Assembly: GCF_000317205.1 (NCBI RefSeq)
Contig: NZ_AJLK01000140.1
Location: 1 to 46,833, forward strand
Source: Fischerella muscicola PCC 7414
GTDB taxonomy: Bacteria; Cyanobacteriota; Cyanobacteriia; Cyanobacteriales; Nostocaceae
Direction of reading: 5' to 3'
Length of the DNA: 46,833 nt
The notes under the pieces are model-generated. The model was given only the letters and a program-made list of their open reading frames with translations, was not told the origin of the DNA and made no database searches. Position numbers and translations under genes: made by a program. This document shows, piece by piece, positions 12,065 to 19,328 of the stretch; position 1 is the stretch's first letter; each line of letters begins with the position of its first letter.

Positions 12065-12516
12065 GCAACTTTCTCCTGAATTTGACCAAAAAGGCTTACA
12101 TACCGTTGTGTAATTTCTTCTCCTGGATGATTATGTAGTGTACATCGCACATATCCTCGACCTCGATTGCGTCCACTTCCTACACGCCGAAGTGCTAGTA
12201 CCCCCACTGCTAAAATTGACAGCATTTCATCACTAGGTTGAGTTTCAAACAGTAAATCAGCTTTGAATTCAAGCTGGCGTATAACTACTCTGAAAGAACG
12301 TAAACTTCCTTTGTCCGCCGTACCAGTTTGGGAATCAATCGCAGTTTGGCGACGGATAGTAGTAAGAGATTCCAGAACTTCCTCCCTTGTCAATGTTTTG
12401 TCTTGAATTTGCCAAGCAACAGCTTCCCGTAAATCATCTGGTAAGCAAGCATCTCCTACGTGCATTGCTGCTATTGTTCCCAAAGTACTGCCGGGTGTAC
12501 CGAAAAGAGTGCTACT
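12061..12516 (-). pseudogene. Type III Cas7-like RAMP protein, N-terminus deleted
   Basis: The open stretch begins after a stop at 12519. It contains LFGTPGST, HVGDACLPDDLREAV, RRQTAIDSQTGTADKGSLRS and a terminal glycine-rich loop RRVGSGRNRGRGYVRCTL, i.e. the middle and C-terminal parts of a Csm3/Cas7 domain. A usable TTG at 12483 would give 140 residues, but roughly the first third of a normal Cas7 fold is missing. Similarity (LFG-x-x-GS) already starts upstream of that TTG, inside the 3' end of the CARF gene. This indicates that a deletion joined the two genes at about 12500-12520. The 3' end overlaps csx10 by 4 nt. Any product would lack the crRNA-binding N-terminal strands. Confidence 0.7.
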
Positions 12517-13694
12517 CTAGCTTCATCACCTCCCATTTGTTTCGCTCTAATATATGCTTCAAAAAGCTTACTCTTGCATAACTTTCTGTCATTACTCGTT
12601 GTACAAGAAATAGCAAAAAGTTGATAACCACGGGTAAACGCAATGTCAAACTGAAATCCATCTTCAGTATCCTTAAGAGGAATTTCAAAATTAAGTCCGT
12701 AGTCTGTTACCAAGTGACTATGAACAATATGATTGACTTGCTCTAACACATAATGTTCTAGCCATAAACCGTCTAGCCACTCGCAAAAATGTTTGAGTTT
12801 TTTAAAAATCTCCGTTTTCTGGACTTCTTGTAAAGAAAGTTGACTATCACTTGTAACAAAGCTTTCTTGATTAAAGGCTGCAACTATTTCTTTCGGTAAT
12901 TTTTCCAAACATGTTGATACTTCTTTCAAAGATGTTTCACTTTTCCACTCTCCCCAACTACCGTTTTGTTTCTTCTTACGTGCTTCTTGACAAAATATAT
13001 TTTGATACCAATCAAACCACTGTTTTTGTTTAGCCTCTTCTTGAAAAACATTGGCCAGTTCTATAGCTAAATTCGGTAATTGCGCTTGCTGTATAGGCTT
13101 TGGATCTAACTCCAAACCATGAAGCTGGAAGATTTTTACAAGTTTGACAGGTAATATATCTGGTTTGATTTTTAAGCGGATGCGCTCATTATCTTCTCTA
13201 TCGATGCACATCTCTAATTTGCGAGCGTCGAGATAGCTAAAAGTAATACCTTCACGCTTCTTGTATGTTTTATCTTTATATGTTTTATCTTTAATTTCTT
13301 CGTAAAACAATGTTCGGTAGGCGTGGGTGGACATCGCCTTTGTTCCGCCTGTATAATTTAGCCCTATTTTTCCGCTTTTAATGCTTTCTAGCTTTTCTCT
13401 AATTTCCGTTTGGATGTGATAAGCATCAGACTCATAATCATTGAGCGATCGCAATTCTACATCTTTAGAACTATTTGACTCACTTTTGAGAATATTTTGC
13501 AGCCGCTTTGCCTGTTCTACTGTATCCGCTGTGTGTACTAAATATGCAGTTCCACCATCATTCAACAACAGCTTTGCTGCAACATAGTTGGGCAGAGGAT
13601 TTTCACCAATCAGCAAAAACAGATGATCTACTTTATACTTGTCAAACTCAGACGTACTCACAGGGAGAATGTATCCGTTTTTCAAAAATGCCAT
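12471..13694 (-). CDS. CARF-domain putative nuclease, DUF1887 (Card1/Can2-like), C-terminus probably cut
   Basis: 407 residues. An N-terminal CARF fold shows GENPLPNYVAAKLLL (30-44) and the ligand-binding motif LNYTGGTKAM (112-121), characteristic of the DUF1887 group that binds cyclic tetra-adenylate made by Cas10. The C-terminal PD-(D/E)XK-like domain has E313, D350 and, on the third strand, AISCTT (361-366) in place of the canonical hydrophobic-(E/Q)-x-K; lysines K371 and K374 follow. The catalytic arrangement is therefore unusual. The protein ends at ALFSVHPAVLWEQ exactly where Cas7 sequence starts in another frame, so its natural tail is probably lost. It is first in the operon and divergent from a WYL-regulator relic. 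Confidence 0.75.
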   Translation of the reverse strand: MAFLKNGYILPVSTSEFDKYKVDHLFLLIGENPLPNYVAAKLLLNDGGTAYLVHTADTVEQAKRLQNILKSESNSSKDVELRSLNDYESDAYHIQTEIREKLESIKSGKIGLNYTGGTKAMSTHAYRTLFYEEIKDKTYKDKTYKKREGITFSYLDARKLEMCIDREDNERIRLKIKPDILPVKLVKIFQLHGLELDPKPIQQAQLPNLAIELANVFQEEAKQKQWFDWYQNIFCQEARKKKQNGSWGEWKSETSLKEVSTCLEKLPKEIVAAFNQESFVTSDSQLSLQEVQKTEIFKKLKHFCEWLDGLWLEHYVLEQVNHIVHSHLVTDYGLNFEIPLKDTEDGFQFDIAFTRGYQLFAISCTTSNDRKLCKSKLFEAYIRAKQMGGDEARVALFSVHPAVLWEQ

Positions 13695-16515: not shown

Positions 16516-16752
16516 CTATACTTCTCCGATAATTTCTGGTTGAGTCAGTTCGTCTGACATTTCAATGATTGCCCTCAGCACTGGCTTCATCATCACATCA
16601 TCATTACTCTCGAAGTCTTCATAACGCCGACGCTTAGCGCGATTTGCCACCTGAACCGTAATACGGTAGCGATTTGAAGCTGCACTAATCAAATCTTCCG
16701 CACGATGCATAATTTGGGTTTGGGTTGTCTCGAACTTAGAACGCTTTAGCAT
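16516..16752 (-). CDS. rpoZ: DNA-directed RNA polymerase omega subunit
   Basis: 78 residues, full length for the cyanobacterial omega subunit. Characteristic segments are [40 protein letters not shown] and [20 protein letters not shown]. Omega wraps the beta' C-terminus and aids RNA polymerase assembly and sigma selection. The gene precedes the secreted protein at 16496 by 19 nt on the same strand, so they probably share a transcript. Confidence 0.93.
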
Positions 16753-17051
16753 ATTTACTGGTTCTTTGGGTCTTTTTTAGTTTAGCAGTATTGTCATTTG
16801 CCATTGATTAGACTTCTTGTAGAAGTCGGGGAAAAGGTTAAAGAGATTAAAAATCCTTTCACCTTTACCGAAACTGCCTTGAAAATGGGTGTAGGGGTAT
16901 AAGGGTGTAAGGATGCAAGCAGATGAAATTTTCATACCCTCGTTGTGAATTATATTCATGGAGTCTCTTGCAAAACTAAAATTTTGCAAGATTTCTAATG
17001 AACTACTTTATACTTTCTGAGGTCTAAGCAACCAAGTATAGCCATACATCT

Positions 17052-17612
17052 ATGAAAAATATCAGCAAACTGACTCAAATATTTTGGATTGGTTTGATTA
17101 TTTTATTATTTTCTTTTTGTGTCACTGATGTTGCTGCTGCGCGTGGAGGTTGTTTTGCAAGGGGAACTGCTATTTTGACAACCGAGGGTTATAAACCAAT
17201 TGAGCAACTAGATCAGAGCGATCGCATTATTGGTTATAACTTTACAACCCAGCACCCTGAAGAAGGAAATATTGGTGAAATTCAGGTTTTATCTTCTCCT
17301 GGTTATTTTTTAATTAATGACAAAATCAAAGTTACAGAAAGCCATCCTTTCTATATCAAAACTTCTACGGGAGTTAAGGTGGTAAAGGCGCAAAAACTTA
17401 AACCTGGTGATCAGCTAGTTGGAGAAGAATCTCACCCTGTTATTTCTAGTCTGGAATATGTCAATAAACCTATTACTGTCTACAACCTCATCTCCGTCAG
17501 CCCAAATCACAATTTTTACGCAGATGGCATTTTAGTGCATAACAAAGGAGGTGGAGGTGGTGGCGGTGGCGGCGGCGGTGGTTATGGCGGAGCGAGGTAT
17601 GGAGGACACTGA
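17052..17612 (+). CDS. Secreted Hint (intein/hedgehog-type) domain protein with Gly-rich tail
   Basis: 186 residues. A signal peptide (IFWIGLIILLFSF, cleavage near VAAA, residues 27-30) is followed almost directly by a Hint domain, C34-N164. Block A is CFARGTAILTTEGYKPIEQL. Block B has the catalytic TxxH pattern KVTESHPFYIK. Block F/G is VYNLISVSPNHNFYADGIL, ending in VHN (H163, N164). The residue after N164 is Lys, not Cys/Ser/Thr, so classical splicing is not expected, but N-terminal thioester chemistry or Asn cleavage could occur. The 22-residue tail holds 12 consecutive Gly, then YGGARYGGH. The likely fate is export, self-cleavage and release or conjugation of the tail (inference). Confidence 0.8.
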   Translation: MKNISKLTQIFWIGLIILLFSFCVTDVAAARGGCFARGTAILTTEGYKPIEQLDQSDRIIGYNFTTQHPEEGNIGEIQVLSSPGYFLINDKIKVTESHPFYIKTSTGVKVVKAQKLKPGDQLVGEESHPVISSLEYVNKPITVYNLISVSPNHNFYADGILVHNKGGGGGGGGGGGGYGGARYGGH

Positions 17613-17720
17613 ATCCTTTACAAATTGACCAAAATCATTGATTTTCAGCTAATTTAGTGTAATCAGAAATTGCTGAATCCTTATCTTCCAAATTAGTTTG
17701 TATTCAAAAGTACAGAATTA

Positions 17721-17848
17721 TTTAATATTTTTATTAGTCAATAGATAGATAAATAATCTTTTAGAAATTAGCATAATAAATGTGGTCTATGACCCTAACA
17801 AAGGCATTGTGCTTACCGTCGTGATTTTGTAATCATGGCGGTATTTTT
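17721..17848 (+). ncRNA. Candidate small RNA, tandem unit A
   Basis: It starts with TTTAATATTTTTATTAGTCA and a GATAGATA box shared with units B and C. It has a small internal hairpin (GGTCTATGACC) and ends in a terminator-like stem: ACCGTCGTGATT (17815-17826) pairs with AATCATGGCGGT (17831-17842), 12 bp with two G-U pairs, followed by ATTTTT. The two wobble pairs keep the stem despite base changes relative to unit B. The transcript boundaries are inferred. Confidence 0.5.
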
Positions 17849-17980
17849 AATGTAATCAACTAAATTCGTTTTTTGTATATATCAGCTATTTGACTTTAGA
17901 TATTTCCTTTGGATAAACTCGATATATTATAAGTTTTACACTTATTTTCAGATAAGTTTGTTTTGATAGCTACATGATAA

Positions 17981-18131
17981 ATTAATATTTTACTACTCGA
18001 TAGATAGATGCGTAATATCTAAAAATATCAGAGTATATGTAGGGTAGATAAACTTGTTTATCTAAACGTCCATTAAATTAGAAGGCATTATTCCTCAACT
18101 GTCGTGGTTGTAAAACCACGACATTATTATT
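17981..18131 (+). ncRNA. Candidate small RNA, tandem unit B
   Basis: It opens with ATTAATATTTTACTACTCGA and TAGATAGATG, then a TAATAT -10-like box. An internal perfect hairpin is TAGATAAAC/GTTTATCTA at 18045-18064. The unit ends with the stem TGTCGTGGTT/AACCACGACA (18100-18123), followed by TTATTATT. Spacing from the conserved start to the terminator stem is 119 nt, nearly identical to unit C. Confidence 0.55.
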
Positions 18132-18167
18132 CCTTATAAGTTATTTTGTATCTGTAGCTACGTAATT

Positions 18168-18320
18168 AATTAATATTTTGACTCAACAATCGATAGATTA
18201 AGGCTTTGTATAGAACCAAGATAATGTTAGAAGTAAATGATTTGCTCAATCATCTACTCATTTTTTCTCTAAGGTTTCTTTTACTACTGTCGCGAGTCTG
18301 CGGATCGCGACATTATTTTT
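18168..18320 (+). ncRNA. Candidate small RNA, tandem unit C
   Basis: It opens with ATTAATATTTTGACTCAACA and TCGATAGATT. The internal hairpin is AGTAaATGATT/AATCATcTACT at 18232-18258, with a different sequence from that of unit B but the same position. The final stem TGTCGCGA/TCGCGACA (18288-18312) is followed by TTATTTTT. The stem bases differ from B in a compensatory way, which is what selection on RNA structure would produce. Confidence 0.55.
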
Positions 18321-18571
18321 GGAGCGATCGCTACTTTAAATTAGTATCATATTATACCTAAATTTGACCCTAATTTCCCTGTTAAGAGTTCCCCTTTCCC
18401 TATTCCCTATTTCCTGTTAAGAGTTCCCTCTTACCTGTTATTTTTCCAGAGTGAATGTGCTGTCTTCTGCAACTGGAAACCACTACTTCTAATTGGGTAG
18501 AACCCGCTCTGTTGGTAGTGAATAGGTTATTTCCCTAGATTCTAAAATAGAATTAAGCCACAAAAATAACT

Positions 18572-18937
18572 TTGATTTACATGAAAATACAGTCATCAGT
18601 ACTAGTCCATTTAGGATTTGGCAAGTACGTGCGTTCAGACCAAGTCACAGCAGTAGTACCGATTGAAGAAGATAGGGGCCCAGGACGACGCACTTTTGTT
18701 CATCTCCAAGGACAAACTAACCCAATTATCGCCTCAAGAGCTGAAGATACCATTGTGCGTGACTTAGTGCAGGAGCCGCGCGAAGTTACCCAAGCACGTC
18801 AACAGCAGGAAATTCTTCAAGATTTATTAGTAGATCTTGGCAATGTTAATTCGACTGTACGTCGGATTAGTCGTGATGAAGGCGGTTTGGATATTGAACG
18901 GTTAGAGCGGCGCATTCGCCAAGTTTTGGAGAATTAG
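18572..18937 (+). CDS. RemA/DUF370-like protein with C-terminal helical extension
   Basis: 121 residues. The N-terminal part, VLVHLGFGKYVRSDQVTAVV (about 10-29), resembles the DUF370/RemA signature (x-I-x-I-G-F-G-N-x-V-x-x-x-R-I-x-A-V). Then follow GRRTFVHLQG and IIASRAEDTIVRDLV, corresponding to the RRTRAVIITDS and later strands. RemA proteins are small DNA-binding regulators of matrix and osmotic genes. This one differs by a charged C-terminal helix (about 70-121, REVTQARQQQEILQDLLVDL). The start may be the second Met (residue 4). Its frame ends 86 nt before the broken lyase-family gene, with which it probably formed an operon. Confidence 0.65.
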   Translation: MIYMKIQSSVLVHLGFGKYVRSDQVTAVVPIEEDRGPGRRTFVHLQGQTNPIIASRAEDTIVRDLVQEPREVTQARQQQEILQDLLVDLGNVNSTVRRISRDEGGLDIERLERRIRQVLEN

Positions 18938-19023: not shown

Positions 19024-19328
19024 ATGTACGCGATCCGAGACAAGGAACTTTCATCACAGCCAGAAGCGCGTCAGCGTCGTATGTGGATACCAGAACGCGT
19101 CGTATTTACACCCGCGGCTTTGGAAGAACCTTACGCTCAGCAGATACTACAGCGTGTCCAGTCATTTAATTTACCTGTGGAAGAGCTACCACGAAACCGC
19201 CTCACAGGTTTACGCGGTGAAGACGAACGCGATACATACAACATTGCTAAATGAAGACTATAAAGCGCTTTTTTGAGGATGAGATTCAACGGCGCTTTCC
19301 CAATGCAAAAATTTTATACTGGACTTAA
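19024..19328 (+). pseudogene. Spore-photoproduct-lyase (SPL) family radical SAM protein, internally deleted
   Basis: Two pieces of one protein in different frames. 19024-19254 encodes the N-terminus: RRMWIPERVVFTPAALEEPY, VEELPRNRLTGLRGEDERDT, YNIAK, then a stop. 19251-19328 encodes a C-terminus-like tail, KRFFEDEIQRRFPNAKILYW, before a stop. The radical-SAM core with the CxxxCxxC cluster motif, some 250 residues, is absent. In cyanobacteria this family (SPL-like, of uncertain substrate) commonly follows the RemA-like gene as here. The tail assignment rests on its aromatic ILYW end and position. Confidence 0.65.

Follow-up and report, generated by a model that had tools for sequence, protein, structure and literature searches.

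Three tandem paralogous units, predicted to encode sibling small RNAs, in Fischerella and one further genus

Sibling small RNAs and the Fischerella array

To our knowledge, NsiR1 is the only example of tandem sibling small RNAs (sRNAs) that has been studied in heterocystous cyanobacteria. LhrC is a set of paralogous sibling sRNAs with a shared motif; like NgncR_162/163 and AbcR, it belongs to other hosts, is not known to be related in sequence to the array described here and has tested targets. NsiR4 and NsrR1 are single sRNAs. In Nostoc sp. PCC 7120, NsiR1 is described as twelve copies of about 60 nt, seven of them identical, that are located upstream of hetF and are provided with DIF promoters (PMC9045159). 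The array analysed in this work would resemble it in consisting of tandem sibling sRNAs, each with its own promoter and with some copies diverged, in a heterocyst-forming host (PMC9045159). Unlike NsiR1, it has three strongly diverged units, GT-N10-AC palindromes, a terminator in each unit and no DIF motif. It is also like NgncR_162/163 and AbcR, as these are described, in that its paralogous members have a motif in common, and it would share its regulator with NsiR4 and NsrR1, as that regulator is described, if the palindromes are real NtcA sites. Unlike at the canonical NtcA-linked promoters described in PMC3898017, the palindrome lies away from -41.5. We would class the array as a new family within an already known type, that of tandem sibling sRNAs. 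No description of it was found in the literature consulted on heterocystous tandem sRNAs, on Nostoc rpoZ sRNAs or on sRNAs and NtcA in Fischerella, supplements aside. The sRNA survey in PMC4734099, as described there, starts from Nostoc PCC 7120. Start-site data exist for Fischerella (PMC5580265), and the tables of that work may well list the starts of the array.

The likely explanation, judged from sequence, is that the three units are paralogous, trans-acting sibling sRNA genes that arose by tandem duplication and became independent transcription units, and that the core of each RNA acts by pairing with mRNAs. Arrays of this type illustrate how sRNAs multiply by duplication and share out their targets. 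The present one would be a second, unrelated example in heterocystous cyanobacteria, and its seed, promoter and terminator are distinguishable by their conservation.

Layout, distribution and a split array

The window, a stretch of 46,833 nt from Fischerella muscicola PCC 7414 (contig NZ_AJLK01000140.1), carries three head-to-tail units, A, B and C, on the + strand at 17700-18322, flanked by genes for a Hint-domain protein (17052-17612) and a RemA-like protein (18581-18937). In A, B and C, respectively, the shared block starts at 17721, 17980 and 18168 and the end stem at 17814, 18100 and 18288. Three tandem units with a shared start block and a strong end stem followed by a T-rich tail had been predicted from the same DNA, and this prediction was confirmed with its coordinates essentially right; the block-to-end-stem distances, given as 94, 119 and 120 nt, measure 93, 120 and 120 nt. 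The units are paralogous and have sequence in common 5′ of the predicted start as well as in core and terminator. The internal hairpin, which was thought to keep its position, does so relative to the block (61-62 nt in the window) but not relative to the end stem. A scan of the window with Rfam 15 gave only a tRNA above the gathering threshold, and the four matches within 17600-18450 were all far below it. The features of the units are collected in Table 1.

Table 1. Predicted features of units A, B and C in the window. Identity refers to the comparison between genera, three genomes of each.
Feature	Position	Strand	Sequence	Remark	Identity
A palindrome	17700..17713	+	GTATTCAAAAGTAC	NtcA-type GTA-N8-TAC; centre -77.5 from predicted +1; GT and AC at this offset in 7/7 A units	half-sites 89 and 100%; N8 43%
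A upstream promoter block	17722..17751	+	TTAATATTTTTATTAGTCAATAGATAGATA	-62 to -33; 26/30 columns invariant (six genomes)	91%
A predicted -10	17772..17777	+	CATAAT	xATAAT in 7/7 A units; 6 nt 5′ of hairpin	89%
Predicted sRNA A	17784..17848	+		~65 nt; fold z -4.9 against dinucleotide shuffles	
A hairpin	17784-17794	+		hairpin + core, 27/27 invariant	100% with core
A core	17795-17813	+	CTAACAAAGGCATTGT + 3		
A terminator stem	17814-17843	+		followed by T tail	86%
B palindrome	17960..17973	+	GTTTTGATAGCTAC	GT-N10-AC; centre -76.5; GT..AC at this offset in 7/7 B units, full GTA-N8-TAC in 0/7	
B upstream promoter block	17982..18010	+		one base shorter than A and C blocks; 21/29 columns invariant	83%
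B predicted -10, weak	18031..18036	+	GAGTAT	nAnnAT in 7/7 B units; GATAAT or TATAAT in the other genus	61%
Predicted sRNA B	18043..18129	+		~87 nt; fold z -3.4	
B hairpin	18045-18064	+			90%
B core	18078-18097	+	TTAGAAGGCATTATTCCTCA	19/20 invariant	98%
B terminator stem	18100-18123	+			88%
C palindrome	18148..18161	+	GTATCTGTAGCTAC	NtcA-type GTA-N8-TAC; centre -77.5	
C upstream promoter block	18170..18199	+			78%
C predicted -10	18220..18225	+	GATAAT	GATAAT in window; GACAAT in G001 and G002	
Predicted sRNA C	18232..18320	+		~89 nt; fold z -3.3	
C hairpin	18232-18258	+			
C core		+		unpaired, pyrimidine-rich, with AAGG	
C terminator stem	18288-18312	+			

The array was then sought in relatives, as had been recommended. 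Units A and B matched in the same 7 of 217 genomes of the family, which represent 2 of its 56 genera, and homologues outside these two genera were not found among the 217. Genus 1 contributes the window's own genome (G000), Fischerella thermalis PCC 7521 (G001, contig NZ_AJLL01000105.1) and G002, and genus 2 contributes G006, G202, G203 and G204. When the whole array was searched for in 60 genomes, two from the window's genus matched strongly, with identities of 85% and 90%, and G006 matched at separate places. At the lax E value of 10 all 60 genomes matched, and the best match beyond the two genera (E 0.0024) was taken as chance. In a search of 388 genomes from the order, model R2 matched three, namely the window's own, G001 and, weakly, G443 (E 0.025). 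The G443 match was rejected as a homologue and taken as chance because it lies within an open reading frame, with 79 codons free of stops. G002 and the genus 2 genomes match R2 strongly yet are absent from these matches, being presumably outside the 388 genomes drawn; the stricter filters of this search may also have lost weak homologues. No further copy of the array was found in the window's genome at E 0.001.

In six of the seven genomes the array lies between moaE and a gene that we recognized as, and take to be, rpoZ. Comparison with the window's proteins by tblastn placed a DUF1818 gene, a gene for a 172-residue protein and rpoZ on one side, and moaE and a histidine kinase gene on the other; this arrangement, which is that of the window, is shared by G001, G002, G202, G203 and G204. 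The genome of G006 differs. Its unit A (position 2172646; L045 4145-4278) is accompanied by DUF1818, the 172-residue protein and rpoZ, and its unit B (520888; L044 4393-4547), 1.65 Mb away, by moaE and the kinase. Since the neighbours are divided between A and B, a rearrangement must have broken the array between them. Each unit kept its promoter-like region and terminator after the separation, and therefore A and B look like separate transcription units. The rearrangement amounts to a natural test that A and B are each self-contained. The body of C was found in the window and G001 only and is missing from five of the seven genomes, with remnants consisting of promoter and start in G002 and of the promoter region alone in genus 2.

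The array does lie directly after the Hint-domain gene, as originally predicted, but this gene is incidental: it is present in G001, partly present in G002 and found in none of the genus 2 loci. It encodes a small, secreted-looking Hint-domain protein (PT-HINT) in which ...VHNKG is followed by a glycine-rich tail. Relatives of this protein occur in Fischerella thermalis, Calothrix and Adonisia, and distant ones in metagenome-assembled genomes labelled Gottesmanbacteria, Omnitrophota, Elusimicrobia and Methanomassiliicoccales. The RemA-like gene, whose Pfam match is below the cut-off, was found in G002 only among the six relatives.

Predicted promoter regions, transcripts and terminators

Each unit has the same order of elements: a GT-N10-AC palindrome, a block of 29-30 nt that reads TTAATATTTT...GATAGAT, a -10-like nAnnAT, about 6 nt and a 5′ hairpin at the predicted start. 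The palindrome, absent from the original prediction, has a fixed place 5′ of each unit. It starts 22 nt 5′ of TTAATA in 18 of 20 unit promoters, and at any other of 100 offsets tested GT-N10-AC occurs in at most 3 of the 20. Two promoters depart from this: C of G001 carries a deletion, and in C of G006 the palindrome is shifted by one base; C of G203, a 21st promoter outside this count, has it as well. The full GTA-N8-TAC is found in nine of the 20 promoters (five A, four C, no B). Three GTA-N8-TAC occur in 17613-18571 against 0.27 expected from first-order Markov sampling (P 0.0024; P 0.030 for two or more), in a test chosen after the sites had been seen, and one of the three lies outside the units. 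This one, at 18344-18357, lies just 3′ of the last terminator and 5′ of the RemA-like gene, and not at the offset characteristic of the array.

The distance from TTAATA to nAnnAT is about 50 nt (49 in B, 50-51 in A and 50 in C). The -10-like box is xATAAT in all A units and in four of seven B units, and GAGTAT or GAGGAT in the other three; in B it is conserved no better than its surroundings. Six nucleotides after the box the hairpin region begins with GGTC in A and with AGTA in C of the window and G001. In B it begins with GGTAG in genus 1 and, one base later, with GGATAG in genus 2. The block had been taken as the start of the RNA-like units. Most likely it is promoter DNA and not RNA, and the RNAs probably begin at the internal hairpin, about 62 nt downstream. 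A search of the seven genomes for the A/C block with up to three mismatches and fixed spacing, which leaves out the differently spaced B block, returned 11 matches: seven A, three C and one outside the array, in G203, with three mismatches. The reversed control gave two.

The conservation between genera follows this division. In A, the spacer to the -10 is 58% identical and the six bases after the -10 are 44% identical, and strong conservation begins exactly 6 nt after the -10, at the predicted +1, which indicates that hairpin and core are the parts under the strongest constraint. The 27-nt string that starts at 17784 is identical letter for letter in all seven genomes. The three bases after the core show 0% identity in the alignment, where a 3-nt length difference makes their placing uncertain. 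In B, the spacer to the -10 (62%), the six bases after it (54%) and the linker between hairpin and core (52%) are the variable parts. The spacers upstream of A, between A and B and between B and C are 45%, 60% and 44% identical.

The predicted transcripts fold better than nearly all dinucleotide shuffles, with 0, 0 and 1 of 200 shuffles folding as well as A, B and C; for longer stretches that include upstream DNA the z values are -3.5, -2.6 and -1.7. The cores, CUAACAAAGGCAUUGU in A, UUAGAAGGCAUUAUUCCUCA in B and CUAAGGUUUCUUUU in C, are largely unpaired in the predicted folds, although the A core can pair weakly with downstream sequence. The motif AAGGCATT is common to the cores of A and B, and AAGG is found in C. 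The 5′ hairpins hardly vary within A or within B; between units they share position and not sequence.

Every unit ends in a hairpin of the Rho-independent terminator type, a TGTCG..CGACA stem with a T-rich tail, for which A has the variant ACCGTCG..GGCGGT. A terminator scan of 16600-18700 gave three sites, A and B among them and C not, and on its own is not significant because 1.5 (sd 1.4) sites are expected. The end stems had been said to differ while pairing was preserved, and in the terminator stem of 16 unit sequences (15 distinct) 96.7% of the cells are indeed paired. Between A, B and C, four of 12 stem pairs are changed on both sides. Doubly changed cells number 17 against a shuffle mean of 7.1, and none of 500 shuffles, which do not keep relatedness, reaches the percentage paired, the doubly changed cells or the covariation score; the count of doubly changed pairs is reached by 66 and that of pair types by 492 of the 500. 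A ten-pair version has three doubly changed pairs and 12 doubly changed cells, against 4.5 in shuffles. Among A orthologues, variation affects six of 13 stem pairs, each at one of its two positions, and 90 of 91 stem cells are paired; shuffles are uninformative there because they give the same values as the data. Among B orthologues, G-C is exchanged for G-U in two of ten terminator pairs, and genus 2 lacks the outermost pair of the hairpin. No doubly changed pairs were found within the A or the B orthologues. The structural support therefore comes from the terminators, and likeness among the units is not independent evidence since they are related by descent. Drift without preserved pairing had been named as counter-evidence; the relatives' terminators drift with their pairing kept.

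These results partly support the original idea of a tandem sRNA array with a promoter and a terminator for each copy, through the conservation in two genera, the pair-preserving changes and the split array of G006; what had to be revised is the predicted start of transcription and the bearing of the Hint-domain gene.

Alternative readings, regulation and targets

The same three sRNA genes could instead be transcribed from a start within the block or immediately downstream of it (about 17748-17758 in A). The RNAs would then have a variable leader and measure about 90-115 nt. We regard this as rather unlikely. Such a start would bring the palindrome to about -41 to -52, nearer the usual place of NtcA, and a competing -10 does exist inside the block, the most conserved upstream element, as TTAATA-N17/18-TAGATx, with TAGACT in C of G001. 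A TAN3T box at 18013-18018 is kept in 7/7 B units, and a mechanical scan gave TTGATA-N17-TATTTT in B only. However, TAN3T is present 20-24 nt after the palindrome in just one of 21 promoters, the TAGATx of A and B does not end in T, and the leader would have an identity of 58-62%, in contrast to the sharp onset of conservation at 17784 in A. The distance between nAnnAT and hairpin in A also stays constant though the six intervening bases change. J-Box (SigJ) promoters, sought with the consensus described in PMC6495340, were also considered and rejected: there were none on the + strand of 17613-18571, and the two on the - strand (18393 and 18428) lie outside the units.

Other readings dispense with the three sRNAs, or assign them to a known family. 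A row of terminators and promoters, or a relic of a mobile repeat, acting in cis without any trans-acting RNA, would agree with the terminators being the strongest structural feature and with the loss of the C body from five of seven genomes. It is nonetheless quite improbable, as the cores are conserved above the terminators (100 and 98% against 86 and 88%), the window's genome has no second copy at the E value given above, the syntenic place is the same in six genomes, and A and B were kept after their separation in G006. A coding role for unit A, whose tiny peptide would read MTLTKALCLPS in the window, with the other units decayed or unrelated, is very improbable. A short open reading frame with its ATG at 17789 does overlap the A core, and the length difference of 3 nt between genera, just after the core, keeps its frame. 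On the other hand, 27 nt are unchanged, synonymous sites included; the stop codon is not conserved, with TGA in the window and all four genus 2 genomes and TGG in G001 and G002; a +1 at 17784 leaves no room for a ribosome-binding site; and B has AAGGCATT with a TAG directly before it in the same frame. Finally, tandem copies, individual promoters and similar length could suggest membership of the NsiR1 family, to which we give almost no credence. TCCGGA, the DIF motif, occurs 0 times on either strand of 17613-18571, the locus is rpoZ-moaE and not upstream of hetF, and the units are strongly diverged, the comparison having been made by described features. The original caution against equating the two arrays was well placed.

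In the preferred reading, that of three independent sibling sRNA genes, a factor bound to the palindrome at about -77 would switch each unit on or off, helped by whatever binds the block at -62 to -33, and the regulator of the sRNAs would possibly be of the NtcA type. Each RNA would consist of a short 5′ hairpin, an unpaired core and a Rho-independent terminator. The core would most likely pair with mRNAs, probably near start codons, and repress their translation. Since A and B share AAGGCAUU and differ around it, both shared and private targets are to be expected.

The frequencies of GT-N10-AC (18/20) and GTA-N8-TAC (9/20) in the unit promoters agree with NtcA at the level of sequence, GTN10AC being the conserved core of 508 putative NtcA sites described from ChIP in Anabaena (PMC3898017). 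The geometry is not the canonical one. NtcA activation is described for a site at -41.5 with a TAN3T box (PMC3898017), and here the palindrome centres lie at -76.5 to -77.5 from the predicted +1; the one promoter with TAN3T 20-24 nt after the palindrome is C of G001, in which the palindrome is broken. NtcA is also described as acting non-canonically at cphB1 and ntcA (PMC3898017). The motif pattern leaves either a non-canonical site, a start further upstream, another protein of the CRP family or a palindrome that is not used. It is a tentative idea, which we think may well be wrong, that the units form a nitrogen-responsive regulon arm whose three sibling sRNAs are confined to Fischerella and a second genus and repress by pairing at start codons. 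An NtcA-type switch would then have been copied with each unit, two of the RNAs keeping the AAGGCAUU seed with changed surroundings, and if true one nitrogen signal would be split over several sets of mRNA targets. If NtcA binds the palindromes, nitrogen control in true-branching cyanobacteria would gain a further level, that of RNA. The palindromes make the earlier suggestion of nitrogen-shift experiments more pointed.

Among the pairing leads for A and B no target stood out. The reverse complement of the B core resembled a start site (GGAATAATGCCTTCT), and the inspected part of the contexts of core-complement matches in the seven genomes was mostly antisense or internal. The B pattern occurred 24 times in the window's genome against 5 for the reversed control, and the A pattern 11 against 8; the B excess was not taken as evidence because the reversed control has another dinucleotide composition. 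For the B core and the start of a DUF5331 (Pfam) gene, a lead selected for its match, the pairing energy is -18.4 to -21.2 kcal/mol (mean -20.8) in the seven array genomes, which are close kin, and averages -14.5 (best -19.7) in 16 other genomes. This scoring covered 23 of 33 loci, ten having been dropped when the start pattern was unmatched. In the window, -21.2 is reached by two of 1388 ATG contexts, which are overlapping contexts of one site. At this rate a few such matches are expected by chance among several thousand genes, and DUF5331 was rejected as a B target, its pairing being within chance. For the A core, the start of a gene recognized as, and presumably, that of an ion antiporter was rejected as well; the match is present in the window's genome and G002, and the similar strings found in three stretches of genus 2 are not located in a matching gene. 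The best pairing among 27 gene starts scored in the window was -15.6.

Two other genes of the window deserve mention. A 76-residue open reading frame at 19024-19254 resembles the spore photoproduct lyase family, but only over the initial 57 of its 338 positions and with a score under the curated cut-off; the frame is also present in G002 and not in the G001 locus, and may be a fragment or a small derived protein. The product of the gene at 12471-13694 has a CARF domain of the Card1 type and may belong to a defence locus, CRISPR-linked or otherwise.
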